From Cyanobacteria bacterium SBLK (GTDB taxonomy: Bacteria; Cyanobacteriota; Cyanobacteriia; Cyanobacteriales; Spirulinaceae), in NCBI GenBank assembly GCA_017746715.1, contig JAGHZQ010000069.1, positions 62,001-126,000 of the forward strand: a stretch of DNA of 64,000 nucleotides, in the 5' to 3' direction. The translations under genes were made by a program, and so were the position numbers. Position 1 is the stretch's first letter. The number at the start of each line of letters is the position of its first letter. Below, in pieces: positions 17,320 through 32,007 of the stretch. Under the pieces are notes generated by a model that was given only the letters and a program-made list of their open reading frames with translations, searched no databases and was not told the origin of the DNA.

Positions 17320-18933
17320 TCAAAAGTTGACTCGATCTTGTTGCGTGATTGAAGGTTTAAACGTTACCTTGTCACACAATTCAAAGTACAAATCCCGCGT
17401 TCCATCAAGATCGGATTCAATCGCTAGATCGGGATTGTATTTAAATATAAATTTTGCTTGTGCTGTTAATTGGCCCAGCTTCGTCGTCAGCTCCTCTCCA
17501 TCCGTTCTGTCTTTGTTCAATTGATTTAACTTGTAACTAAAGTCAAGATAATCGTGATTCCATCCAATTATACGGTATGGACGAGCCACGTGAGTATACT
17601 TTTTCCCCTGCGTTTGAACATAGTTACCCAGACTCGATAAACTCCAATCCCATTGCTCTTTATTCGTTTTTAGTCGTTTCTTCAGTTCTGGAAGCAATTT
17701 TATTGAGTCTTTTTTATTTTTATCCAACCTCTCAGAACTAAACCGATCTAGTATCATTTTACAATAATATAGTTCCGGATCTTCATATTGATTCTTGCTG
17801 GCACTTCGATACGTATGACAAGCACTCATTAGTGAACCATCCATATTTTCATATTGCTTGAGTACTTCCTTCTCGAAGTCAATCCTTTGCGGTCCTTCGC
17901 CTAGTTGTGATGAGATTTGAGCTATGGCTTTTTTACGGCTGTAAATGCTCCATAAATGTAACATAAATAGATCGTGACAAGGCATCATTATCAAAGGATC
18001 TTCTTCTAAAGCAAGGACAAAAGTAGTAAATGCTTTGTTCCACAATCTATCTGCATACTCTAGATCGCCTTCTTCACTCTTTATTTTAGCCTGGATTGCA
18101 TAAATAGCAGATAAGAAAAGGTTGCTCCAAGCATATAGCAACATTTTATCATCGGCCATTTCAAGAGCCGTCTCGAAATGCTGGCATGCCTGGCCTAGAA
18201 GTGTTATATTTATAGCCCCTGACAACTTAGCTTCTCGATTTAGCCACCACTGAACGATTTCCCAGTCTGTATTCTTATATCTGGATAAGTAATACAGAGT
18301 CGCTCCGAAGTGTGCATGATACCAATAACGTTGGTTCCCTCGGCTTTCTGTAAATGTATCGGCTGCCTCCCATAGATATTTTTTTTCTTTTTTTGTAATC
18401 CATTTCAACGGCTCCTTGCATTTTTCCTCCGAATCGCCAGTAATCTCCTGCCAAATCTCTTTTTCTTTATTTTCTCCTTGTATTTCCTGATGATGTTTCT
18501 TGATGAAGAAACAGGCCAAAGCTCTTTTTCGGATAGCTTCTGCGAGATGATGTCTAGCCCAGTTAGATATTTGTTCGTTTTGGTTTAGTATGGCTTGGCA
18601 AAAATCATCCTGAATTTCCTTAAAGTGGAGGTCGGAGATTATTTCACGAAGCGTCACTCCTGCCGGCCACTGATAACCAGAATAAAACAACCGGTCTGAC
18701 AGCTTAATGGCTTCCCCCATTTGATGAGATTTAGCTTCACCTCTATGGGCATAAGCCCAGCGTCGAAAGGCATCCCTGACTGGAACTTGTGGTTCCTCAT
18801 TGAGTCCTTCTATGCAGTTGATAATTGTATTGAGTATCATTAAAGCGTGTCCGCTTTGTCTCTTACTTTCGTAATCAGCAACAGCCTCAGCCATGAGTTT
18901 AAGATCTTGTGCTGTCTTTGCCTTCTTTGTCAT
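17320..18933 (-). CDS. Unknown helical protein, probably TPR-like
   Basis: 537 aa. I do not recognise the family. The sequence is almost all alpha-helical, rich in Trp, Tyr, Lys and Glu, with helix pairs reminiscent of degenerate TPR or alpha-solenoid repeats (LLGQACQHFETALEMADDKML; ADRLWNKAFTTFVLALEEDPL). There is no signal peptide or membrane segment. The gene sits 38 bp downstream of a true TPR protein, and 27 bp upstream of the 87-aa leader-like peptide, all on the minus strand, so the three probably form an operon. Codon use looks more AT-rich and contains fewer HIP1 sites than the neighbours, which hints at transfer. A scaffold role is a guess. Confidence 0.6.
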   Translation of the reverse strand: MTKKAKTAQDLKLMAEAVADYESKRQSGHALMILNTIINCIEGLNEEPQVPVRDAFRRWAYAHRGEAKSHQMGEAIKLSDRLFYSGYQWPAGVTLREIISDLHFKEIQDDFCQAILNQNEQISNWARHHLAEAIRKRALACFFIKKHHQEIQGENKEKEIWQEITGDSEEKCKEPLKWITKKEKKYLWEAADTFTESRGNQRYWYHAHFGATLYYLSRYKNTDWEIVQWWLNREAKLSGAINITLLGQACQHFETALEMADDKMLLYAWSNLFLSAIYAIQAKIKSEEGDLEYADRLWNKAFTTFVLALEEDPLIMMPCHDLFMLHLWSIYSRKKAIAQISSQLGEGPQRIDFEKEVLKQYENMDGSLMSACHTYRSASKNQYEDPELYYCKMILDRFSSERLDKNKKDSIKLLPELKKRLKTNKEQWDWSLSSLGNYVQTQGKKYTHVARPYRIIGWNHDYLDFSYKLNQLNKDRTDGEELTTKLGQLTAQAKFIFKYNPDLAIESDLDGTRDLYFELCDKVTFKPSITQQDRVNF

Positions 18934-18971
18934 CGTTACCCTCTCTGATTTTTTAAACGAAACTTTTTTGC

Positions 18972-19820
18972 TTAACTATCCAACAAACTGTTGAATTGAG
19001 GCCGATCGCGCCATTCGAGCCAAGCAAGATCGTGACGCAATAATTCTCTCGGTTCTTCATGTAACATAACAGCTTCCCGTAAAAAGGTAAAGGCTAATTT
19101 CTCATTTTTTTCTAACGCGGCTAATCCTGCTAAACGATACAGAATTCCCCCCGTCCTGCCGTCTCGCTCTAATGCTGTTTGCAGTGCCTTTCGCGTCATG
19201 GCTATGTCGCTGGCTGCTACTGTCAGATCTTTCCATCGGACTTTCGCTACAGCTAGGGTATACCAGGCAACATAATCATCGGGATTTTCTCTCAACCCCA
19301 ATTGACAGCATTCTATGGCCTCTGCATATCGGCACATATAACTGAGCAATAATCCCCGCTCTCCCTGCCAACTCGGTATAATTTGGTTATCTATGGCGAT
19401 CGCTCGGTCGAGATCCGATAAAGCGATCTCATATTCTTTCAGGGCTACGTAACAGTTTGCTCGATACATTAGCGCCCAAGCATAGTTGTTTTTTAACGCC
19501 ATCGCCCGGTCGAAATCCTCTAGGGCTGCGGGATAATCTTGTAAGCTAAAATAAGTTGCCCCTCGGTGAGCAATGGTCCAAAAATGACTCGGTTTTAAGG
19601 CGATCGCTCGATTAAAATCAACTAATGATTTCTCGTAGCATTTCATCTGTCTGTAGACTTCGCCACGATGGGCGATCGCCCAACTATAGTCGGGTTTGAT
19701 TTCTATCGCTTGACTAAACTTAATTAATGCTTGCTCGTAGCATTTCTGCAAGCGATAATCTTCTGCCTGTCTGGCGATTTCTCGTGCCTTTTCTCCGACT
19801 CCAATTTGCCGATTTTTCAT
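18972..19820 (-). CDS. TPR repeat protein
   Basis: 282 aa with about five consecutive 34-residue TPR units from residue ~15 to ~190 (ALIKFSQAIEIKPDYSWAIAHRGEVY; SLVDFNRAIALKPSHFWTIAHRG; ALEDFDRAMALKNNYAWALMYRA; ALSDLDRAIAI). The C-terminal ~80 residues (AFTFLREAVMLHEEPRELLRHD, then AWLEWRDRPQF) form a conserved cap found in other cyanobacterial TPR proteins. There is no signal peptide, so it is presumably cytoplasmic and mediates protein binding. It is the first gene of a likely three-gene unit reading towards the kinase fusion. Upstream is a 627-bp gene-free stretch holding a MITE-like element. Confidence 0.8.
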   Translation of the reverse strand: MKNRQIGVGEKAREIARQAEDYRLQKCYEQALIKFSQAIEIKPDYSWAIAHRGEVYRQMKCYEKSLVDFNRAIALKPSHFWTIAHRGATYFSLQDYPAALEDFDRAMALKNNYAWALMYRANCYVALKEYEIALSDLDRAIAIDNQIIPSWQGERGLLLSYMCRYAEAIECCQLGLRENPDDYVAWYTLAVAKVRWKDLTVAASDIAMTRKALQTALERDGRTGGILYRLAGLAALEKNEKLAFTFLREAVMLHEEPRELLRHDLAWLEWRDRPQFNSLLDS

Positions 19821-20447
19821 GTTAGTTCACCATCCCCAAATGCGCCATCATTTCCCGATCGGCTGGAGATTGTTAATATTGTAAGGAAGACTTTTGTAAA
19901 ACAACCAGATTTCATACTCAACCTCCCTTGTAATTCTTCAGGATAATTTTGTTTGGGATTCGTTAGGGAAATGCGATCGCACTTCTAACCGTATCTCCCC
20001 AACCTTGTCACTCGAACACTTCAAAAAGTCACACTAGGGTTTGATTTTCAGCCAGTGTTACCAGCCTTTGAGCATTAGTTACTATTTGTGTGATTACACT
20101 TGAGAAGTGTTCTTTGTCTATCTCAACACAACCCACTGAAAATTGCAAGACCTTTTCCTACTTGTTTTTTTGCCTTGGAAGTGAAACCCAAGTCTCATTC
20201 CTATGTACGAAAAAAATAAGTAGGTGGGTATAAATTAACGTTAAAACACATAATCGGAAAATGAAACTGAAAGCCAGTTATCAAGAGAGTTTCACGATTT
20301 TGAATTTCAATCATAATTTTACAGATCATTAAGCCCACCTACTTACGCTTTTAAGAGCCTAAATTGAACTAACCTCAAAGTAGCTCACGACCGAATAAAT
20401 CCATCTCTTCACTACCAAGTGTTAGAAGCAATCTTTGCATGCCTCTA
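19821..20447. other. Gene-free accessory region, 627 bp
   Basis: I find no credible gene. The stretch holds a MITE-like element at 20217-20345 and, before it, an imperfect inverted arrangement: GAACACTTC at 20014-20022 and GAAGTGTTC at 20104-20112, with nested ATTTTCAG/CTGAAAAT. The 3' end of the Cys-rich peptide transcript and the promoter of the TPR operon must lie here. Base composition is AT-rich compared with the flanks. Confidence 0.45.
20217..20345. mobile_element. MITE-like element, 129 bp
   Basis: Perfect 12-bp terminal inverted repeats, TAAGTAGGTGGG at 20217-20228 and CCCACCTACTTA at 20334-20345, flank an AT-rich core with no open frame. This looks like a non-autonomous transposon remnant. 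No clear target-site duplication is seen. Confidence 0.6.
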
Positions 20448-20657
20448 CTAGATTGGCCTACAAGTGCAGCCACAGGCAATGAAACGATTGTCACAGACTG
20501 GCATGTAACCCGGCTCACAGTTATCTTCTTTTGGACTGCATCCTCCGATAAAGCCACCACACCGACATGTTCCGATTCGTGAATATGTAATTCCCGAAGA
20601 ATGAACGGCAGTACTGACTTTACGCAGGACAGGTTGAGATTGAATCGGAAGATTCAT
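20448..20657 (-). CDS. Cys-rich mini-protein, candidate precursor for the adjacent PatA/G-type protease
   Basis: 69 aa, ATG start with AAGGAG eight bases upstream, a strong site for so small a frame. The N-terminal ~22 residues (NLPIQSQPVLRKVSTAV) resemble cyanobactin-type leader starts, which carry a PVxR-like motif. The remaining part holds eight cysteines (TCRCGGFIGGC, NCEPGYMPVC, ACGCTC) and ends RPI. An even number of Cys suits four disulfides or thiol-derived modifications. It lies 157 bp downstream of a PatA/PatG-family subtilisin on the same strand. The pairing supports a ribosomal peptide whose leader is removed by that protease, but no cyclodehydratase, dehydrogenase or prenyltransferase gene is nearby. 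A secreted disulfide-rich toxin-like peptide is the alternative; there is no signal peptide. Confidence 0.65.
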   Translation of the reverse strand: MNLPIQSQPVLRKVSTAVHSSGITYSRIGTCRCGGFIGGCSPKEDNCEPGYMPVCDNRFIACGCTCRPI

Positions 20658-20814
20658 GAGATTTTCTCCTTTTTGTTTGTTTGGTTTGTTGTTCGCGATG
20701 AGGTAAAGCGGGAAAATCCCTCCCTCAACATTTGATATTGGCTAAAATTTGCGAAGCATCTTCTAACTCAAAGGGGTACGAAATTTTTCAAAATCTCCTG
20801 CCTCCACGCTTCAT

Positions 20815-22773
20815 TTAGCTAGCAATTGACCAAGAACGAACTGAACCGATCGTCACGGGAATTACATCGCTGACATCGAGAGTAAATCGGTACACTTTCC
20901 CGGCCCGTTGGTTGTTTTCTAGATTGAAAAACTGTAACTTCACATCGTAACAATCCGAGTCAGGTCGGCAGATCGGACTCTTCTCGACAGTAATGCGATC
21001 GAGTCCGAGTTGGCTAACCCCCGCACTTTCCATAACTTCCGTAATCTGGAAGGCATTAGTTGCTGAGAAATTAAGCGCTCGCTCTTGTGGGGTCATCCCC
21101 AAGTTACGGTATTCGTAATAAATCCGGTTGAGATATTCGCGAATTTTAGGGGACGTATTCTCGCGAGTTGCACTGTCAAAGGTTGCGACCAAAGTATCGA
21201 TTAAGGCTTCAACCGACCAACTGTAAATCCCTCGCAGTTCTGGTACGATCGCCGGCACGGTTTGACCGGAAAGTAGGGTAACACTGCCTCCCACATATCC
21301 GGGAATAGAAACTCGTTCTATGCTCTCATCGCCTAAGAATTGACGCAGCCTGTCGTAAGTTATGTTTGCAAAGGGTCCAACAGGGACAATGGCATAAATC
21401 GGTGTTGCATCCAGATTGAGCGTCCAAATCAGCGATTGAGCTTCCCAAGGGTTATCGTTAAGATACTGCAACAGGGTCGTATTCGGAGGTATGGCTTGGG
21501 TAAAGGCATCGCGACGAGCTTGACTGCCGAAATCCGTTCCCAGTTCTCCCAGAGCGTAAACCAACTGGGGTTTTTTACTCTTGTCCGCGCAGGTCGCACA
21601 TTCAGAAGGCGCAACCGATGAAGCCTCACTCTTTTCCAAAACCTCTAGATGAGCAGGCACTAAGCTAGCCGGAACAACTTCCGATGCTTCCACGCCAACC
21701 GCTAGTTTTTGGGTTGCAGATTCTCGATCCGAGTTGATAATGTTGCTAGCTTCAGACAGATTTGACTCTGCTGAATACACTGGCACTTGTAGATCTGTAG
21801 AATCGATTTCGCTCGGTTGGACTGCTGTATCTTCTAATTGTAAATCGGACATTTGTACGTCTCCTTGAACTACTAGGGTATAGGCCCCATTAACATCGAC
21901 ACTGCCTGCTAGAAAGCGGCGGCATTTGGCATCTTCCTCCAGAGGGCAGGGCTGAGCGCTCTTGAGGATGGCATTGCGGATTTTATAGGGATCCGGTTCC
22001 CTTCCCTGTTTGAGCTGGATACTGAGTAGGAGAGCTGCAAGACCGGATATGATAGGCGCAGCAAAACTGGTGCCTGTCTTAGTACCCGTCCCTCCCCCAG
22101 CCACCGCACCCAAAATGCTTTCTCCGGGGGCAAGAATCCCTAGGGTTTGGTAAATTTGACCCCAGTTACTGAAGTCAATGGGGTTTCCCCGAGCATCCAT
22201 TGCTCCCACGGCCAACACTGGGGCGATCGCTGCTGGGACGTGGAGACATTCGCACCCATCGTTACCAGCAGCGGCGACAATCAGAACATTGTTGTCTGCA
22301 CAGTAGCGAACCGCATTAGCCAGCAATGGATCGGCCATTCCCGATGGTGTCAGCTGACCGCCGCTAATATTAATCACATTAGCCCCAGCTTCGACAGCTT
22401 GCTGGATCGCTCGTGCTAGATCTATCTGAGAACAGGGAGCTAAATCACCATTATTCCCATCAGTAAATACAGGGACAATCAGCCCGCGACAGCCAGGAGC
22501 AATACCATGAACGGGGCTACCGTGTTGGCCGAAAATAACACTAGCAACGTGAGTTCCATGCTGCGATGCGGGGCCTGTGTCAGCACCTCCAGAAATCACT
22601 GTCTTTATCTGGGTGAGTTGCGCCCCGTCAAAGCACGGATGAGATTGGTCAACAGGTCCGTCAAGAACTGCAATACAAATTCGAGAGTCACCGAGAGTCT
22701 GTTTCCACAGGAATTCTAGTCCGGGCAATACTATTGTTTTAGTCAAACTCACTTTCATTGCCATAGCTGCCAA
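20815..22773 (-). CDS. PatA/PatG-family subtilisin-like protease
   Basis: 652 aa. The N-terminal ~260 residues are a peptidase S8 domain with Asp38 (IAVLDGPVD), His72 (SQHGTHVAS), oxyanion Asn171 (AAAGNDG) and Ser236 (TGTSFAAP). A ~140-residue low-complexity Ser/Glu/Val linker with a CATC motif follows. From ~400 comes the domain typical of cyanobactin maturation proteases (YALGELGTDFGSQARRD; SLIWTLNLDATPIYAI; VGPFANITYDRLRQFL), and a further ~120-residue end. Length fits PatA rather than the longer PatG. In cyanobactin pathways PatA cleaves the leader and PatG macrocyclises. There is no signal peptide, so it acts in the cytoplasm. The neighbouring Cys-rich peptide is the obvious candidate substrate. 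No other cyanobactin enzymes are present, so the pathway would be minimal or split. Confidence 0.85.
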   Translation of the reverse strand: MAAMAMKVSLTKTIVLPGLEFLWKQTLGDSRICIAVLDGPVDQSHPCFDGAQLTQIKTVISGGADTGPASQHGTHVASVIFGQHGSPVHGIAPGCRGLIVPVFTDGNNGDLAPCSQIDLARAIQQAVEAGANVINISGGQLTPSGMADPLLANAVRYCADNNVLIVAAAGNDGCECLHVPAAIAPVLAVGAMDARGNPIDFSNWGQIYQTLGILAPGESILGAVAGGGTGTKTGTSFAAPIISGLAALLLSIQLKQGREPDPYKIRNAILKSAQPCPLEEDAKCRRFLAGSVDVNGAYTLVVQGDVQMSDLQLEDTAVQPSEIDSTDLQVPVYSAESNLSEASNIINSDRESATQKLAVGVEASEVVPASLVPAHLEVLEKSEASSVAPSECATCADKSKKPQLVYALGELGTDFGSQARRDAFTQAIPPNTTLLQYLNDNPWEAQSLIWTLNLDATPIYAIVPVGPFANITYDRLRQFLGDESIERVSIPGYVGGSVTLLSGQTVPAIVPELRGIYSWSVEALIDTLVATFDSATRENTSPKIREYLNRIYYEYRNLGMTPQERALNFSATNAFQITEVMESAGVSQLGLDRITVEKSPICRPDSDCYDVKLQFFNLENNQRAGKVYRFTLDVSDVIPVTIGSVRSWSIAS

Positions 22774-22960
22774 AACTGGAAGACGATATCATCCGAACCC
22801 ATCACAGCACCGTGATTTTGGCACAATCTTTCTGTAAGAAAATCACGTTTTTTTCTTATCTGTTTTGTAGGGTCGTCCCAGATGAATTCACTTATTTTTT
22901 TATACATTTAAGTTTCCTTTTCTCTGGAATTGGGTTCATTTTGGCTGTTTTTTTTTTAGG

Positions 22961-22983
22961 GGTCAAGACGCAAAAAGTAACTT
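22961..22983. repeat. 23-bp direct repeat, copy 1
   Basis: GGTCAAGACGCAAAAAGTAA followed by CTT; matches 23244-23266 except for one C/T change. Located about 190 bp upstream of the PatA/G-type protease start. Confidence 0.6.
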
Positions 22984-23243
22984 GTTGAAAATTCTAATAA
23001 TGAGTGAGTTTGTTGAACGGTCTAAGGCGCACTGCTTCTGAGAAAATTCGCTCATCGTTGCTTTTGTCAGGTGTCGATCTGAAATCGGCATGAGTTACTT
23101 TTTACCCCTTTTTTCTCAAAACCAATCGGGATCGACTCAACAGAATTCGCAAAAGAATAGACCACCCACCCTTAGTAATAAGCAGGGCTTATTGAAATTT
23201 GATTTTTTAGCGATCTTGTTAATGAAAAGCTGATTTTTTGAGA

Positions 23244-23266
23244 GGTCAAGATGCAAAAAGTAACTT
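23244..23266. repeat. 23-bp direct repeat, copy 2
   Basis: GGTCAAGATGCAAAAAGTAA followed by CTT, 22 of 23 bases equal to copy 1 at 22961. A T-rich tract precedes both copies. Confidence 0.6.
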
Positions 23267-23522
23267 TGGGGAATCAGTGAGTCAGCTATCGTTGGTTGGG
23301 GCGCGCAAATTCCTTCTTTTTGAACCGGTCAGAGCCTCAAACCATGTGTAGTATATTGGGAGTGTGAAGGTCGCAAACTTCCAACAAAAGCGATCGCGTC
23401 TTGATTCTATTAACCAAAAACAGGCAGGCGATCGCTGAAGTTCTATCGAAGTGATGTCCGTTCCACAATGTATAAAGATTTTGTTTAATTTTGCTTTTTT
23501 GACAAATCAAATGGACTTACTA

Positions 23523-24170
23523 TCACTTCAAATAACAACATTGACGATGCAAAGGACAACTCGAACAATGAGGATTTCTCGCCGTACAAACCGCCGCCCC
23601 AAAATCAATTAAGGTTAAATTCCAACTACCTACCTTTGTTTTCGGTGCAACCCGTTCCGCCGCCTGCCATAATAAAGGATCTCGAGATTTAACCCGCCCT
23701 CCTTTGATGCCAAAAACCCGCTCTAAAATTCTGGCGACATTCGTATCGAGAACCGCACAAGATTTATTATAAGAATTGGCGAGAAGCGATCGCGCTGTAT
23801 ATTTCCCCACTCCGGGCAATTGCAATAATTTGCTTTCGGTTTTAGGGATTTTGCCCTTATATTGTTCTAACAAAATTGTTGCTGTTTCATGCAGACGAAA
23901 GGCACGAAAATGCAATCCGAGAGGCTGTAAGATGTCACGAATTTCCTCCACCGATCCCGCCGCTAATGCCTCCAAATTGGGATAGCGTTCCATAAATTGT
24001 TCGTAAAAGGGTGCGGCAGTCGGTGCGTCGGTTTTTTGTAAAATAAATTCAGCCGCTAAAATTGCATAAGGATCTTGAGTTCTTCGCCAAGGAAAATCGC
24101 GAAAATTTTCCCGACTCCATTCTCTCATTTTACGGCGAAACCATTGGATTTTTGTGCGTTCTAAAGACAT
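23523..24170 (-). CDS. HhH-GPD base-excision glycosylase, MutY/Mig.MthI-like
   Basis: 215 aa. The helix-hairpin-helix (LPGVGKYTA, 118-126), catalytic Asp142 (VLDTNVARIL) and a 4Fe-4S cluster (Cys195-x6-Cys202-x2-Cys205-x5-Cys211) mark the endonuclease III/MutY superfamily. The residue at the endonuclease III catalytic Lys position is Tyr124, as in the T/G mismatch glycosylase Mig.MthI; MutY usually has Ser and endonuclease III Lys. The ~130-residue C-terminal NUDIX-like domain of true MutY is missing. I therefore read it as a monofunctional mismatch glycosylase (T:G, or possibly A:G), not housekeeping MutY. It lies 43 bp downstream of a retron-like reverse transcriptase on the same strand, so the two may be cotranscribed. 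Confidence 0.8.
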   Translation of the reverse strand: MSLERTKIQWFRRKMREWSRENFRDFPWRRTQDPYAILAAEFILQKTDAPTAAPFYEQFMERYPNLEALAAGSVEEIRDILQPLGLHFRAFRLHETATILLEQYKGKIPKTESKLLQLPGVGKYTARSLLANSYNKSCAVLDTNVARILERVFGIKGGRVKSRDPLLWQAAERVAPKTKVGSWNLTLIDFGAAVCTARNPHCSSCPLHRQCCYLK

Positions 24171-24213
24171 TTTTTCAATTCAAAATTCAAAATTATCAAT
24201 TCAAAAATATTCT

Positions 24214-25920
24214 TTATAATTTCTGGATACTTCCCACGGTCCGATAAAATCCTCCTACCGCAGACTCGCGAAGTTCCTCAACGCGATACCTCGCCCCCTC
24301 TGCCATTAAATTGCGCGGAATCTGCACGTTCCAAGAAGAATTATATCCCTGAGAAATTACCCTGACTTTTAACTTACTTCCTTGTTTGTAACATTCTAAA
24401 ATGATGCCATCGGGAAGAGATTGTTCCGGTATCGCTTCAGGTGTTTTTTCTTCAATAACAGGAAGAGAAATTGAAGGTGTAGGACTGCTTTTCTTTGTTT
24501 CTTTCAATGTCCATTTTTCCCGAATGCGATCGATTTGCTCTAAAAAAACTTTCCCTTTTTCAGGGTGTACCATATTGACAAAATTGGCAAATCCTTGTAC
24601 GGCTAACATTATGCCAACATCCCGAGAATTTCCCCAATATTTTCCTTGTATGCCATCCTTTTCGAGGTGATATAAAGTTGCGCGAAAGCGTCTGAGAGTT
24701 TTACTGTCAATCGTAGGACGTTCGTTAACGATAATTCCCGTCACCTCTAACTGACTGGATTTGCGCCGCATTATGCGCGTTTTCTCGTCATTAATAATAA
24801 ACCCTTCATGAGTAACAATCGATTCGGTACGACGCAAAAGATTGCAAAGCGATCGCAAATTGTTCTCCCCCGAAGCAGAAAAAGTTAAATCATCGGCGTA
24901 ACGAGTATAAGTAAAACCCAAACTCGTTGCCATGCCACTCAAACGCCGATCCAAACGTCGACAAATAATGTTACTAATTGCAGGGGAAGCAGGAGAACCT
25001 TGGGGTAAGTGCCGATCGCCCGAGGCGACAAAATAAGTTTTCCCATCGAGTTCGACTTCTTCTAAATCTGCCTCTGTAGACAATAAGCCCAAAATTGTTG
25101 CTGCCGCTTCCGAATATCCAAAAGAACGAAATAATCCTTTCACCCGTTTATAAGAAATGGTGGGAAAGAAATCTTTCAGATCGAAATTGATCGCAACATC
25201 CGCACCCACATGAGGACGAGCATTGGTCAGAATCGAGCGATCGCGTCGAAATCCATGGACTGCTTCGTGAACTTCAATCTTTTCCAAAACCTCTCGTAAA
25301 ATCCAATGCTGTACCCGCTTTAACCTTGGCATTGGAGCGGAAATCAAGCGCTCTCCTCCCCGTTTTTTCGGTATTTTGAAGCGAATGTAATGGGAAAGAG
25401 AGGACACCTTGCGATTGAAGGCGAGAAAGCGCAATTCTCCTACAGTAATGCCCATTGCAGCGGCAATTTCTTCGGCATTATTCACCATCGGCAAACCGCG
25501 ACTTTGCAAGCGATCGCGATCTCCATCTTGGTTATTGAGTCCTCCTGAAACTTCCTCACCTAAATAAATAATCTCTCGTTGTTTTTGTTGCTGCCATGCC
25601 TCGGCCCGTTCTTGTCTCTCTCGTTCCCGTCGTTCTCTAGTTTCCTTTTGTTTGCGCCGCGATTCCGACCATCGCTGTTTGAGTGCCTGTTTTCGCAGTT
25701 GTTTCTCGCTATGCAGTCTGCTGCTTTCTCGGCGCAGTTCTGACAATTCTCGGCGAATTTCTCCCTCTTGGCGAATTTCGTCAGCAGGATCTTCCGGTAG
25801 CGTCCCCTGCTGCGGCCAAAATCCCAAGCGAATCATCTCTTCGAGAACGAATTCTCGTTTCCCTCCCCGGCTGCGGATGAGGTCGTACAATTCTTGGCGG
25901 GTGCGAGGTTGTTGAGACAT
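24214..25920 (-). CDS. Retron-like reverse transcriptase with N- and C-terminal extensions
   Basis: 568 aa from the ATG at 25920. A GTG at 25974 would add 18 residues encoded by repeat-like sequence and is less likely. The RT core (~160-460) has FDLKDFF (246-252), LPQGSPASP (305-313) and the catalytic YADD (341-344). Two signatures usual in retron RTs are visible: NARPH (233-237, the NAxxH motif) and VTG (393-395). N-terminal to it are a short helical domain (1-45, RSRGGKREFVLEEMIRLGFW) and a charged Arg/Glu coiled coil (50-115). C-terminal to it is an unidentified ~65-residue beta-rich domain (ILECYKQGSKLKVRVISQGY; GGFYRTVGSIQ). The ~200 bp upstream (25921-26132) is where a retron RNA could lie, but I could not prove one. 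A glycosylase gene follows after 43 bp. Confidence 0.85.
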   Translation of the reverse strand: MSQQPRTRQELYDLIRSRGGKREFVLEEMIRLGFWPQQGTLPEDPADEIRQEGEIRRELSELRRESSRLHSEKQLRKQALKQRWSESRRKQKETRERRERERQERAEAWQQQKQREIIYLGEEVSGGLNNQDGDRDRLQSRGLPMVNNAEEIAAAMGITVGELRFLAFNRKVSSLSHYIRFKIPKKRGGERLISAPMPRLKRVQHWILREVLEKIEVHEAVHGFRRDRSILTNARPHVGADVAINFDLKDFFPTISYKRVKGLFRSFGYSEAAATILGLLSTEADLEEVELDGKTYFVASGDRHLPQGSPASPAISNIICRRLDRRLSGMATSLGFTYTRYADDLTFSASGENNLRSLCNLLRRTESIVTHEGFIINDEKTRIMRRKSSQLEVTGIIVNERPTIDSKTLRRFRATLYHLEKDGIQGKYWGNSRDVGIMLAVQGFANFVNMVHPEKGKVFLEQIDRIREKWTLKETKKSSPTPSISLPVIEEKTPEAIPEQSLPDGIILECYKQGSKLKVRVISQGYNSSWNVQIPRNLMAEGARYRVEELRESAVGGFYRTVGSIQKL

Positions 25921-26132
25921 GATATCAATTCTCAATTCACGATTTGCAATTCGGTTCGATTTCCAAACCGACACTATTATAGTTCATAAATATTATTTTT
26001 GCCTAAAAGGCTTTTCAAAAGGATTTTTGTCTTGTGTGCGCTCCCTGCTCCTAACTCAATCGCATAGAACTTTTGTGAATTATCAGAGCAGATTGTAACC
26101 CAATTATATTTTGTGACACAAGCACCTTTTTT
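25921..26132 (-). other. Leader region of the reverse transcriptase, possible retron RNA site
   Basis: Short AT-rich intergenic stretch. Read on the minus strand it has small inverted repeats (TCGGTTTGG / CGAACCGAA near 25949-25973 and GCC-TTTTA-GGC near 26010). Retron msr-msd RNAs usually lie just upstream of the RT gene, and the space could hold a short one. I cannot identify a branching G or paired a1/a2 ends with confidence. Confidence 0.25.
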
Positions 26133-26597
26133 TCATCCTTCCAAGTCAACCCCTTCCAAATAATCTTGCAAGACAAACTCGTACCCCGATCGCGATACGG
26201 GTTGTTGCAGGATTATCGGAGAAGATGCGGCTACAGAGTCGAGAATCCGCTTGTAGCGAACCAATGCCAGATCGAAGCGACAGGGAAGCTCGGCTAACGC
26301 CGGATATTTCGCCAAAAATAACTCAGCAGTTTGCCAAAGTTTTGCTCGTTTTTGCGGGTTCACTGCCAGCAATCCGTTAACATCCCAATTGCCAGAACTG
26401 CGAGTTTTTACCTCGACAAAAAGCAGCATCGGCTCGGGCGATCGCGCCACTAAATCGATTTCCCCCCAACGACAGTACCAGCGATAGTGCAAAATCTCCC
26501 AATTCCGAGACTGCAGCCAATCGGCAACGACCTCTTCTCCCAACCGTCCCACCTCGAGCGATCGCTTGCCTTTGCCCTGACGTTGAATTTTATTCAA
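26133..26597 (-). CDS. YraN family (UPF0102) nuclease-like protein
   Basis: 154 aa from a TTG at 26597, chosen because AAGGAG lies nine bases upstream. An ATG at 26690 would add 31 atypical residues. The family core is clear: [13 protein letters not shown], then WGEIDLVAR and [10 protein letters not shown], i.e. the Asp and Glu-x-Lys of a PD-(D/E)xK-type fold, as in Holliday-junction resolvase-like proteins. Function in bacteria is not settled. It lies upstream of the RT gene on the same strand but with a 200-bp gap, so it is probably a separate unit. It is divergent from the pentapeptide gene at 26700. Confidence 0.85.
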
Positions 26598-26699
26598 AAC
26601 ACATTTCTCCTTGTTTTGTTGCGATCGGATTGCCTGTATACTTTTCTTAATCCCTACCGTCCATTTTACTATTATATTCGGAAGAAACATCGCACAACA

Positions 26700-27212
26700 A
26701 TGATAAAAAAAGATTTTCCGCCTAGAATTCAGGGCATTTTAACGAGAGTTATTTTCCTATTCATTACTGTTTCTATCTGTTTCAGTATTTTTTCTCCTCC
26801 CGTTCTTGCTGTTTCTTATGAAAAAAGTACCTTTATCGGCGAGGATTTTTCCCATAGAGATTTAAGAGAAGATAGCTTCGATCATTCTATTTTACGTAAA
26901 TGCGACTTTAGTTACTCGAATTTAGAAGGAGTGGGTTTCTTTTCGTCTAATCTCGAGTCTGCGAACTTTGAAGGTGCAAATCTTCGCTTTGCCGTTTTAG
27001 GCTCGGCACGTTTATCTCATGCAAATTTAACCAATGCTGTATTGGAGGATGCTTTTGCTTTTGGCGCTCTTTTTGACGGGGCAACTATTGAAGGTGCAGA
27101 TTTTACCGATGTTTTATTAAGAGCCGACGTTCAAGAAAAACTCTGCAATATTGCCTCGGGAACGAACCCCGTAACGGGAAGAGAAACGCGAGAAACGCTA
27201 CTGTGTTGGTAA
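26700..27212 (+). CDS. Exported pentapeptide-repeat protein (thylakoid-lumen type)
   Basis: 170 aa from the ATG at 26700. A signal peptide ([21 protein letters not shown]) is followed by ~20 pentapeptide units with the A(D/N)LxX pattern ([36 protein letters not shown]), forming a right-handed quadrilateral beta-helix. The end, containing [22 protein letters not shown], has two Cys near the C-terminus and closely resembles lumenal pentapeptide proteins of cyanobacteria and chloroplasts (TL15/TL17 type), where a disulfide is possible. Role unknown. It is transcribed away from yraN and converges on the GGDEF gene with only 30 bp between. Confidence 0.8.
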
Positions 27213-27242
27213 TTCTCCTCCCGCGTCTGCTTCCCTCGCTCT

Positions 27243-28619
27243 CTACAATTCCTCGTAAATTTCAATAAAATCGCGCTCATCTTCTCGGGTGCGATCGAGG
27301 GCTTTTTTTGCCTGTTCGACCAAAATGGAAGGCGATTCGTTCAAGGTGGGGACAAAAGTAGCAATTCCGGCCGAGACATTCATTTTCGCTCTCGCTTCAT
27401 TGGTATCGGGTTCGTCCTCGTATTCCAGATTAGTCCGAATGAGTTCGGCAACTTGCAATGCCCAATAATCGTCTGCATTGGGTAAAATTGCAGCAAATTC
27501 TGCCTCTCCATAACGCGCGACTAATTCTTCCGAACGGCGGAGATATTGTTTGATGACATTAGCTATTTTTTGCAAGGATTTATTGCTCGTTTCATCACCA
27601 TAATTTTCTCGATAGGTTGCTAAATTCTCTATCCGGAATAAAATTAAGGATAGTGAAGAGGTTTTACCCGCTAAATTTTGCCATTGTTGGTTGAGATAAA
27701 TATCAAAATAACGTCGATTCGCCGTTTGCGTGAGTTCGTCAACTGTCGATCGCTGTGCTAGTTCTTGATTCTCTGCTTGTAGGGATAAAAGAATTTCCTT
27801 TTGTTGGGTAATATCGCGAACGGTAACCGAAAACCCATCTCCTAATTTAACCGCACTTAAATAGTACCAAATCTTTCTGTCGTCTCGCGCGTAACAAAAT
27901 TCTCGTTCCAAAGAATCTCCTGTTTCTACGACTTTAATGAATTCCTCAAATAAGAGAGGATCCTGCTTGCTCAGAAATTTTTTTAACATGAGCTTGCCGA
28001 CGAGTTCTTCTTTGGTGCGCTGGACTACGCGGGAGATCGCAGGATTGACGACAATGCAGCGAAAGTCGGCGATCGTTCCCGTTGTCGGGACTCGCACGGC
28101 TTCTAGAGCGGCAATTCCATCTTGAGAAGTACTTAAAATACTGGCAAGGAGAGCGCGGGATTGATGCAAAATTTCTTCGGCTTCTTTGCGTTGCTTAATT
28201 TCTTGTTGCAATTGCAATTTTTGGCGCTGAATGGTGAGTTGACTTTCAATGCGAGCGATCACCTCTTCAACTTGAAAGGGTTTGGTGATATAGTCGATTC
28301 CTCCCATTTGAAAGGCTCTAACTTTATCCAAAACTTCATCTAAGGCACTAATAAAAATTACGGGGATTTCTGAGGTTTCGGGATCGGCTTTGAGTTGAGC
28401 GCAGACTTCATAACCATCCATATCGGGCATTTTAATGTCCAGCAAAATCAAATCGGGAGCCGAGGATTTTGCCGCTCGCAAAGCAATTTTACCATTGATA
28501 GCCTTGCGAACTTTATAGCCATTTTCTGACAGCATTTGCGAGAGAACTCGCAAATTTTCCGGAAGGTCGTCAACAATTAAAATATCGCCAAAAGTTTTTT
28601 GATCTTGCGCTGTAGTCAT
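27243..28619 (-). CDS. REC-PAS protein with degenerate GGDEF domain
   Basis: 458 aa. Residues ~10-130 are a response-regulator receiver (acidic DD pocket, phospho-acceptor in LILLDIKMPDMDGYEV, conserved Lys in YITKPF). A coiled segment and PAS domain (~150-275) follow, then a GGDEF-fold domain (~290-455, DELTQTANRRYFDIYL). The active-site motif reads YGEAEF instead of GGDEF/GGEEF: the second Gly and the metal-binding acidic residue are replaced by Glu and Ala, so diguanylate cyclase activity is doubtful. It may act as a c-di-GMP or GTP sensor or a silent output. It starts 2 bp after the stop of the hybrid kinase, so it is the last gene of a three-gene signalling operon. Confidence 0.85.
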   Translation of the reverse strand: MTTAQDQKTFGDILIVDDLPENLRVLSQMLSENGYKVRKAINGKIALRAAKSSAPDLILLDIKMPDMDGYEVCAQLKADPETSEIPVIFISALDEVLDKVRAFQMGGIDYITKPFQVEEVIARIESQLTIQRQKLQLQQEIKQRKEAEEILHQSRALLASILSTSQDGIAALEAVRVPTTGTIADFRCIVVNPAISRVVQRTKEELVGKLMLKKFLSKQDPLLFEEFIKVVETGDSLEREFCYARDDRKIWYYLSAVKLGDGFSVTVRDITQQKEILLSLQAENQELAQRSTVDELTQTANRRYFDIYLNQQWQNLAGKTSSLSLILFRIENLATYRENYGDETSNKSLQKIANVIKQYLRRSEELVARYGEAEFAAILPNADDYWALQVAELIRTNLEYEDEPDTNEARAKMNVSAGIATFVPTLNESPSILVEQAKKALDRTREDERDFIEIYEEL

Positions 28620-28621
28620 TC

Positions 28622-30922
28622 TTAAATTTTTTCGATTAATTCAATAATTTTATCAAGACGAAATTGGTTGACCAGATTCGCGATCGCTTTGGCCAGATCG
28701 CTATAATCTTCGGGAATTTCTGCTGTTAGGGCGAGAATTTGTTCGTCATCTAAATCGACGGCGGCTTGGTAGAGTCGCTCTTGCCAAGGTACGGGCATCA
28801 CCCGCAAGATTCCAGAATCTAAAAGATCGCGATCGCTGCGATCTTGAAAATGTCGATCGATATCATCATAAACATAATGGACTCCTAAATGCTTGGCCAT
28901 TGTCTCAAAAAGTTCTTCCTCTCGGAAGGGTTTGCGCACGAAGTCGTCGCATCCGGCCGATAAAACGATCGCTTTTTCCTCTTCTAGGGCACTTGCCGTT
29001 AAAGCAATCACCACCGTGGCATTTCCTTTGATGGTTCGCTTGATGTATTTGGTGGCTTCATAGCCATCCATGACGGGCATGCGCATATCCATCCAAATGA
29101 GATGGGGATCCCAAGTTTCCCAGATTTCGAGGGCTTGTTTTCCATTTTCGGCTTCTTTGACCTTAAAGCCAAGGGGTTGTAGCAGTTTGACGAGGAGAAT
29201 GCGATTGCTGGGGCGATCGTCAACGACTAAAATGCGGTATTCGATTTGGCGATCGGCGAGGGCAACGACTCGATGTTTAGTTGTTTTTTGAGAAACGCGC
29301 GTGGCCGGAGCCAGCTCGACTTGAATATCAAAGCTAAATGTACTCCCTTGTCCGAGGACGCTGCGGACGCCAATATCTCCCCCCATCAAGCGAATAAATT
29401 TGCGAGAAATGAGCAATCCCAAACCCGTTCCTTCTTGGATATCTTCTCCCGATTGGGTTTGCATAAATGCTTCAAACAGGCGATCTCGTTCCTCCGGTGC
29501 AATTCCCATCCCCGTGTCTTCGACTTCAAAGCAAATAGTTGTTGGTTGTTGGTTGTTGGTTGTTTGACGGGTAACTGGTAACTGGTAACTGGTAACTGGT
29601 GATGGATTCGTTCTCACGGCAACGAATCCTTTGGGCGTGAATTTAATGGCATTACCTAATAAATTAATCAGCACTTGGCGCAGTTTGACGAGATCGGTGC
29701 AGATATATTGCGGCAGGCTTTTTTCCCGTTCGAAAATTAATTCCAAGCCTTTATTTTCCGCTTGCAAGACAAACATATCCTCCACGTCATCCAAGAGACC
29801 GTAAAGGTCAAAATTGACGGGTTGCAGGATGGTTTTACCGGCTTCGATTTTCGAGAGGTCTAAAATATTATTGATGAGAGTGAGCAAATGTTCGCCACTG
29901 CGATTGATAATATTAATGTTTTCGCGATCGCTTTGGGAGAGCTCCTTAGAGCGATTCATCAGTTGCGAAAAGCCGAGGATGGCATTGAGAGGGGAGCGCA
30001 ATTCGTGGCTCATATTAGCAATAAAGGTACTTTTAGCTTTATTGGCTGCATCGGCAGTTTCTTTGGCGCGAACGAGCTCTTCTTTGACGCTGATACGATT
30101 GCTGACATCGCTTTGAATGCCAATAAAGTGGGTGACATCTCCTTGGGCATCGTGAACGGGAGAAAGGCTCAATTCACTCCAAAATTGCGCTCCATCTTTC
30201 CGATAATTCTGGAAAAGCACTTGGCAAGATTCTCGGGTTGCGAGGGCCTGTTGTAATTTCTGAAAATTGGGATTTTCGCGATCGCTTGCCGCGAGACCAC
30301 AAAAATCTTCTCCTAACACTTCCTCGCGACGGTAGCCCGTAATGCGCTCGAAGCCATTATTCACGAAAATAATAGGGTAGTTTTCCACCCGAGCTTCAGC
30401 GATAATAATACCATCGATCGACTCGGCGATCGCTCTTTTCAAGATTCGCAAGTATTCCTCAACAGCTTGGCGGGATTCAATTTCTTGTTGGAGTTGTTCA
30501 TTTTGACGTTGCAGTTGAAGTTGCAGCGATCTCATATGCAGTTGATTTTCAATTCGTGCCAATACTTCGATCGCTTCAAAGGGTTTGGTAATATAATCGA
30601 CACCGCCCGCTTGAAACCCTTGGAGTTTATCGATCGGTTCGTGCAAAGCACTGATAAACATCACGGGAATATCGCAAATTTCGGGATCGGCTTTTAAAGT
30701 TTCGCAGACTTGATAGCCATTTAATCCGGGCATGTTGATATCCAGCAAAACTAAATGAGGGGGTTTCGAGCGGATTGATTGTAAAGCCAATTTGCCATTG
30801 GGGGCAACCCGAACTTCATAATTTTGTTCGGAGAGCATTTGCGTCAATACACTTAAATTTTCTGGTGTATCATCGACAACAAGGATGCCGATCGGTTCGG
30901 ATGGAGATAGGAGATCGCTCAT
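28622..30922 (-). CDS. Hybrid histidine kinase REC-PAS-HisKA-HATPase-REC
   Basis: 766 aa from the ATG at 30922, chosen because GGAGG is just upstream and the ATG overlaps the previous stop (ATGA). Order: receiver (~10-125, LVLLDINMPGLNGYQV), coiled coil, PAS/PAC (~165-290), dimerisation domain with phospho-His in FIANMSHELRSPLNAILGFS, HATPase (INLLGNAIKFTPKG; EVEDTGMGI; GTGLGLLI), second receiver (LIWMDMRMPVMDGYEA). No membrane segment, so it is cytoplasmic. The ATPase domain carries an inserted peptide, SPVTSYQLPVTRQTTNNQQP, encoded by heptanucleotide repeats (29538-29599), between two core strands. It probably phosphorylates the downstream REC-PAS-GGDEF protein and reads the upstream Cache protein. 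Confidence 0.9.
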   Translation of the reverse strand: MSDLLSPSEPIGILVVDDTPENLSVLTQMLSEQNYEVRVAPNGKLALQSIRSKPPHLVLLDINMPGLNGYQVCETLKADPEICDIPVMFISALHEPIDKLQGFQAGGVDYITKPFEAIEVLARIENQLHMRSLQLQLQRQNEQLQQEIESRQAVEEYLRILKRAIAESIDGIIIAEARVENYPIIFVNNGFERITGYRREEVLGEDFCGLAASDRENPNFQKLQQALATRESCQVLFQNYRKDGAQFWSELSLSPVHDAQGDVTHFIGIQSDVSNRISVKEELVRAKETADAANKAKSTFIANMSHELRSPLNAILGFSQLMNRSKELSQSDRENINIINRSGEHLLTLINNILDLSKIEAGKTILQPVNFDLYGLLDDVEDMFVLQAENKGLELIFEREKSLPQYICTDLVKLRQVLINLLGNAIKFTPKGFVAVRTNPSPVTSYQLPVTRQTTNNQQPTTICFEVEDTGMGIAPEERDRLFEAFMQTQSGEDIQEGTGLGLLISRKFIRLMGGDIGVRSVLGQGSTFSFDIQVELAPATRVSQKTTKHRVVALADRQIEYRILVVDDRPSNRILLVKLLQPLGFKVKEAENGKQALEIWETWDPHLIWMDMRMPVMDGYEATKYIKRTIKGNATVVIALTASALEEEKAIVLSAGCDDFVRKPFREEELFETMAKHLGVHYVYDDIDRHFQDRSDRDLLDSGILRVMPVPWQERLYQAAVDLDDEQILALTAEIPEDYSDLAKAIANLVNQFRLDKIIELIEKI
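29538..29599. repeat. STRR heptanucleotide repeats inside a kinase gene
   Basis: Four tandem GTTGTTG-type units (29538-29565, last one imperfect) and four exact TAACTGG units (29572-29599). They are in frame in the hybrid kinase and fall in the HATPase domain. Such 7-bp tandem repeats are typical of filamentous cyanobacteria but are usually intergenic. Confidence 0.85.
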
Positions 30923-31785
30923 ACATTCCCTCCTCGGACGGCAATGGCTAAAGCGGCCGGACACAGTACGATTGTAGTCAGGATAAGATCGAGTTTTTGC
31001 GGGGTTTGAATGCGAGCGAAATTTTCAAACGCAGTTTGTAAGGCTCGCGCTGTTTTTCGTACTAAAGGATTTTTCAGGTCGGTTTCTTTCAATCGCTCGC
31101 CCTCTTCTCTTTTTTGCAGGTAGAGCAATTCTTCGAGGGATGTCACCCGTAAAGTTCCCGATCGCTCCATAACAAAAGTCTCTCCAGACTTGCCAATTTC
31201 CAAATTTTGCAGACATCGAGAGAATTCCTCTGAGAAAAAGAGAGCTGTCGTACAAACTCCCACGAGAGATTCTTCCCCATCATAAACAGGTATATTGGCC
31301 GAAAGAATCGGGAGATTAACGACCGCATTGATATAAATTTCACTCCAACTGGGTCTACCCGTAGCAACGACATTTTTATACCAAGGACGAGCCCGATAAT
31401 CGTATCGATCTCCGTAAAAATTCCCTAATCTATTTGCCAGTTTTCCTTTGTCCTGGAATAGTTGAGATTGTTCCCAAAAAAGATGCGTTTCTTTAAGATT
31501 AACTGTATCGATATCGCTGCGAACTCGAGTATTTGCGTTAAGTTTATCGATCGTATGACGGGTTTCCGTATAAGCTCGCAATGCTCGTTCGATACGGGCA
31601 GTTAGTTCTTTGCGAATTTGTAAAGCCAGATCGTTAACGGCTTTCTGTCCATTTCTCAAAGAAAGATAGCCGACCAATCCGACAATGCCAAAAATTTGCA
31701 GGATGAAGGAAACCAGTAAAACTATGCGCGGAGGTAGTTCCCTCGATAAATTCGTTAGGGGATTGAACGGAGATTTAAAAGGCAT
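30919..31785 (-). CDS. Membrane Cache-domain sensor, lacking an output domain
   Basis: 288 aa. An N-terminal membrane helix (IVLLVSFILQIFGIVGLVGYL, ~20-42) is followed by an extracytoplasmic dCache-type domain (DYRARPWYKNVVATGRPSW; NLPILSANIPVYD; GVCTTALFFSEEF). Family members normally continue to a second membrane helix and HAMP/kinase parts. Here the protein stops after a short hydrophobic end (LDLILTTIVLCPAALAIAV) that overlaps the start of the hybrid kinase by 4 bp. It may be a split sensor whose partner kinase is the next gene, or a degraded receptor with a frameshifted end. Ligand unknown; Cache domains usually bind amino acids or organic acids. Confidence 0.75.
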   Translation of the reverse strand: MPFKSPFNPLTNLSRELPPRIVLLVSFILQIFGIVGLVGYLSLRNGQKAVNDLALQIRKELTARIERALRAYTETRHTIDKLNANTRVRSDIDTVNLKETHLFWEQSQLFQDKGKLANRLGNFYGDRYDYRARPWYKNVVATGRPSWSEIYINAVVNLPILSANIPVYDGEESLVGVCTTALFFSEEFSRCLQNLEIGKSGETFVMERSGTLRVTSLEELLYLQKREEGERLKETDLKNPLVRKTARALQTAFENFARIQTPQKLDLILTTIVLCPAALAIAVRGGNV

Positions 31786-32007
31786 ACAACCGATCGAAAA
31801 TTTTGTTCTGGGTAACTTTAGTTTATACTATATAGACTTTGGACGAGTTCGGGCAGATATGTAAATTCGTAACGGATGATGAGATCGAGTCAGGTCGTTG
31901 CAATTTTTTATTTTGTCAGGGAATTTCTTGAATCGGATTTTCCACTTCTCTAACTTTACCTTAACGCGAGGAATGTAAGTGGAGAGGCGTTTGATTGAGG
32001 GACGATG

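Follow-up and report, generated by a model that had tools for sequence, protein, structure and literature searches.

The closest described systems are the type XIII retrons, a type that the retron classification of Mestre et al. 2020 reportedly includes and that PADLOC represents through the profiles RT_XIII, SWIM_XIII and WGR_XIII/HEAT-ARM_XIII. In their usual form the parts make up one cluster, with the ncRNA adjacent to the reverse transcriptase (RT) and the accessory genes in the same cluster. Two other systems are relevant here: the retron RTs of myxobacteria (the Mx162/Sa163/Mx65/Ne144 group), which have been grouped with cyanobacterial RTs, and Retron-Nex1 (Ne160), whose msr/msd repeats have no RT within a kilobase (PMC6868368).

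The window analyzed here, a stretch of 64,000 nucleotides from the draft genome of Cyanobacteria bacterium SBLK, encodes an RT at 24214-25920 (minus strand) which, as we consider very probable, belongs to a type XIII retron with dispersed parts acting in trans. The genome shares with other type XIII retrons the RT, the pair of accessory proteins and a structured msr-msd RNA. However, instead of one cluster they occupy five contigs (C85, C19, C66, C115 and C105), there are two ncRNAs, and the RT has an additional module at its C terminus; this genome departs from the usual clustered layout, which is not a biochemical requirement for type XIII membership. Concerning the myxobacterial systems, the window RT is 55% identical to a Nannocystis RT and the Nannocystis loci carry an ncRNA of the same architecture, but in the myxobacterial loci (L092-L094, L101, L102) it lies directly upstream of the RT, which is not the case here. 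With Retron-Nex1 the window genome shares msr-msd copies distant from the RT; the Nex1 copies are described as duplicated repeats, whereas those of the window genome are single structured loci, and the scattering there extends to the accessory genes. The literature searched yielded no description of a retron whose parts are all dispersed, which is weak evidence given the partial coverage of the search.

The reverse transcriptase and its terminal extensions

The RT gene lies on contig C85 and encodes a protein of 568 aa. An earlier note on this DNA had read the frame from a GTG, as 24214-25974 (minus); the frame holds, and the start is now placed 18 codons further in, most likely at the ATG at 25920, because homologues share the start MSxQPRTRQELY. 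The proposal that the RT is retron-like was borne out, since the protein matches the PADLOC profile RT_XIII with an E value of 5.8e-191 and 633 bits, against 306 bits for the second-best model. Pfam assigns it an RVT_1 domain, the nearest solved structures are retron RTs (Ec86, E 7e-47), the AF2 model (pLDDT 84.5) has the retron Ec86 RT as its top PDB match, and in a quick ML tree it groups with cyanobacterial relatives of the same kind. The window RT is thus a retron RT of the type XIII clade. All three signatures picked out earlier are found on the minus strand and are invariant across 20 aligned relatives, i.e. the retron NAxxH motif, here NARPH (residues 233-237, 25210-25224; N, A and H invariant), the catalytic YADD (residues 341-344, 24889-24900) and VTG (residues 393-395, 24736-24744).

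Both ends of the protein had been called unusual, which applies to the C-terminal one only. The N-terminal helical domain (approximately residues 1-140, 25501-25920, minus), with a long helix at residues 45-115 in the AF2 model, is normal for type XIII RTs and aligns in full-length relatives from cyanobacteria, Nannocystis and Proteobacteria. The C-terminal beta-strand module (approximately residues 505-568, 24217-24408, minus) is missing in most relatives, and among the 20 aligned RTs is common only to the window RT, L049 and L027. Its Ka/Ks against a congener is about 0.09 over 66 codons. The same genome has further modules of this type, one in a WGR/beta-propeller protein and two in a VWA-like protein, and this shared occurrence suggests that the RT module may recruit some partner. 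A beta module of about 65 aa with no Pfam match is seen at 24217-24408 (minus) of the window, L002 and L003.

The neighbouring glycosylase

The earlier note had also described an HhH-GPD glycosylase 43 bp downstream of the RT on the same strand, and this arrangement is confirmed: an ORF of 215 aa spans 23523-24170 (minus), separated from the RT gene by a gap at 24171-24213, and matches the Pfam HhH-GPD and EndIII 4Fe-4S models. Its best PDB match is 1kea, a G-T mismatch repair enzyme (MIG), with an E value of 1.1e-40. The catalytic Asp, the 4Fe-4S cysteines and a Tyr at the position of Ser in MutY or Lys in Nth are all present in the sequence; MIG has the same Asp, cysteines and PGVGKYT stretch bearing the Tyr, in contrast with the Ser of MutY. 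A full-length MutY with a C-terminal 8-oxoG domain was considered and rejected, given the length of the protein and a TIGR01084 score of 183.6 bits, below the cut-off of 286.5; a separate MutY-sized homologue (413-aa frame) is encoded elsewhere in the genome. Orthologues (about 52-66% identity) occur in about 50 of 245 genomes, with or without an RT, next to varied neighbours and with no common partner, and all 14 that could be parsed keep PG(V/I)GKYT, an AE(x)LLQ(K/R)T-type motif and the four cysteines. The varied neighbours, together with the conserved motifs and MIG-like Tyr, point to what is most likely a stand-alone MIG-like (Tyr-type) mismatch enzyme, its substrate being predicted from sequence. 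Further along, 750 bp from the glycosylase, the window encodes a PatG-like subtilase with PatG_D and PatG_C domains (20815-22773, minus).

The idea that the glycosylase is a retron partner found no support. In none of the related RT loci fetched, taken from a genome collection and from 386 cyanobacterial genomes, does a close glycosylase homologue lie beside the RT, and the search that the earlier note had proposed for the pair in other genomes found the adjacency, among those examined, only in Cyanobacteria bacterium SBLK, the outcome that the note had said would refute the idea. The sole other match near an RT is a 31%-identical MutY-sized ORF of 366 aa, about 5.5 kb away (L039). The only congener examined, the Spirulina-like G411, whose RT is 79% identical and begins in the same way as the RT of Spirulina sp. 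CCY15215 (L049), has no glycosylase match. Other genomes with both genes carry them on separate contigs or at a great distance from each other (G039, G129, G172, G195, G203, G469, G490 and G456, in the last 3 Mb apart on one contig).

A new type of retron, in which the glycosylase is co-transcribed with the RT and acts as effector or editor of the msDNA, would fit the common strand, the 43-bp gap and a promoter/terminator scan that saw no strong terminator between the genes. It is nevertheless scarcely credible, contradicted as it is by a distribution in which the adjacency is confined to one genome, the congener keeps the RT only and orthologues adjoin unrelated genes whether an RT is present or not, while the known type XIII partners are encoded at other places of this genome. 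The glycosylase gene, which belongs to base excision, is unrelated to the retron and lies next to the RT by chance. A neighbouring UPF0102/YraN gene was also considered as partner and rejected, as no conserved cluster was seen.

Template RNAs and accessory proteins on other contigs

In many RT relatives the RT lies downstream of a SWIM zinc-finger protein on the same strand (43 loci by automatic count), and of a WGR/HEAT protein, and some have a compact cluster of WGR/HEAT, SWIM, ncRNA and RT. The window genome holds a single copy of each accessory gene, SWIM_XIII on C19:16372-18006 (814 bits with the PADLOC profile) and WGR/HEAT-ARM_XIII on C66:93577-96714 (WGR_XIII, 1193 bits). In about ten loci of cyanobacterial relatives (L028, L030, L034, L036, L054, L060, L070, L074, L082), and not in the window genome, an RNase III-like gene directly precedes the RT on the same strand, sometimes with another conserved gene further upstream.

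The structural model of one SWIM_XIII protein (L058:3650-5287, model m98ea0e05d20b) has, over residues 140-365, matches that are almost all PCNA/beta sliding clamps, with Foldseek E values down to 6e-6 and a VIA-align Z of 13 (rmsd of about 3 Å over about 150 residues). The protein may contain a sliding-clamp-like fold, a lead rather than a result because, in a model with an overall pLDDT of 64.7, part of the matching region falls below 50. If true, this would be a fold not known from other retron partners.

A conserved RNA is found in relatives between SWIM and RT, or just past SWIM. The covariance model R1 was built from 21 of these loci, from cyanobacteria, Nannocystis, Proteobacteria and others, and describes a short hairpin and, after it, a long stem of several parts, with flanks that can pair as a1/a2. 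Its consensus has 54 pairs, 41 of them with compensatory double changes, and 92.6% of the alignment cells are paired, against 74.2% in shuffles (0 of 500 reach the observed value) and less than 43% when the alignment is slid. In the window genome R1 finds two copies, one at C115:26135-26306 (minus; 154 bits, E 4.8e-38) and a diverged one at C105:49220-49391 (minus; 90 bits, E 8.6e-21). Both fold better than all 200 shuffles (z of -5.9 and -6.8, respectively) and close through an a1/a2-like end pairing. The earlier note had suggested a covariance search for an msr-msd near the RT itself; with filters off, R1 gives only chance-level scores over window positions 18000-32000, so that no msr-msd is hidden there. 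R1 has no match beside the SWIM gene of this genome (L122) either, and no Rfam retron family matched the window or, at a permissive threshold, the ncRNA loci.

Two ncRNA copies with differing msd stems are also seen at L061, L077, L091, L103, G172:C163, G551:C1 and G556, and several type XIII retrons seem to have two templates. A related group of RTs (G042, G048, G074, G203, G328, G352 and G376; L040-L045 and L047) mostly aligns only from about residue 147 on and occurs without SWIM; in some cases the ncRNA model has a match close by, which is short and weak.

The RT on C85 would probably use the two RNAs on C115 and C105 in trans as msr-msd templates for msDNA, and the resulting complex of RT and msDNA would act together with the SWIM protein (C19) and the WGR/HEAT-ARM protein (C66), as in the four-part clusters of relatives. 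We infer the choice of RNA, since neither ncRNA adjoins the RT; a role in defence is suggested by membership in the retron class.

Linkage across cyanobacteria and the maintenance of the scattered parts

Although the genome is a draft of 123 contigs, the parts lie inside their contigs, none of them closer to an end than SWIM with its 3.8 kb, and hence are not one cluster split by the assembly. Read by eye, the genes around the parts on C19, C66, C115 and C105 look like ordinary chromosomal genes.

Across 386 cyanobacterial genomes the RT is present in 22, and SWIM (15), WGR-HEAT (11) and the ncRNA (15) are found exclusively within those 22. Fisher p values for co-occurrence with the RT are 5e-22, 1e-15 and 5e-22, respectively, values that shared ancestry makes optimistic; counted by genus, the p value for SWIM is 4e-15. 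This distribution bears on the proposal that the RT has left the retron for another cellular role through its C-terminal module, with SWIM, WGR-HEAT and the ncRNAs working without it. The occurrence of the module in non-retron proteins of the genome would suit such a departure, which is very unlikely given that the other three parts never occur without the RT.

The RT lies on another contig than SWIM and the ncRNA, or far from them, in G000, G008, G129, G172, G213, G308 (about 640 kb, same contig), G320 and G360 (about 25 kb), and close to them in G039, G195 and G197. Thirteen further genomes were picked for having no SWIM in view beside the RT (L049 and L050 because their contig ended early), and all 13 have SWIM and ncRNA, away from the RT except for the ncRNA of L050. 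About 20 cyanobacterial genomes besides the window genome have SWIM away from the RT; in the 21 genomes counted as lacking SWIM beside the RT, SWIM and ncRNA are located elsewhere. SWIM and ncRNA remain together in most of these genomes, and are apart in the window genome, the Spirulina genome (C424 and C215) and L050. On a quick ML tree, with L092 and L070 scored as linked, the linked or unlinked state changes about 10 times by parsimony, at least seven of the changes being forced by well supported branches.

Scattered parts, one of them a diverged ncRNA, could also be expected from a decaying retron, its RT cut from the operon and its other pieces relics. We regard decay as improbable, because the frames are intact and the catalytic motifs invariant, both ncRNAs keep their structure and end pairing, and unlinking is a recurrent event, seen in many lineages in which SWIM and ncRNA are retained. 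Furthermore, Ka/Ks against the congener is 0.14 (0.13/0.91) for the RT and 0.05 (0.066/1.30) for SWIM, hence both are maintained by purifying selection. Starting from the preferred reading, that of a type XIII retron working in trans, a more specific and tentative possibility, which we would not favour at present, is a domesticated retron: one RT, two separate msr-msd RNAs and partners at two further ordinary chromosomal loci would be vertically selected for a cell function beyond operon-borne phage defence, with SWIM, perhaps clamp-like, at sites of replication or repair.

Retrons are found and typed through the neighbours of their RT, which gives the wrong neighbours in this genome and in some 20 further cyanobacterial ones. 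With SWIM, and usually the RNA too, encoded elsewhere, synteny-based tools would call such RTs orphans or propose false partners, e.g. the window glycosylase. Natural trans-encoded retrons would also allow two questions to be tested directly: does an RT need nothing but sequence to find its RNA, and can several msDNAs depend on a single RT?
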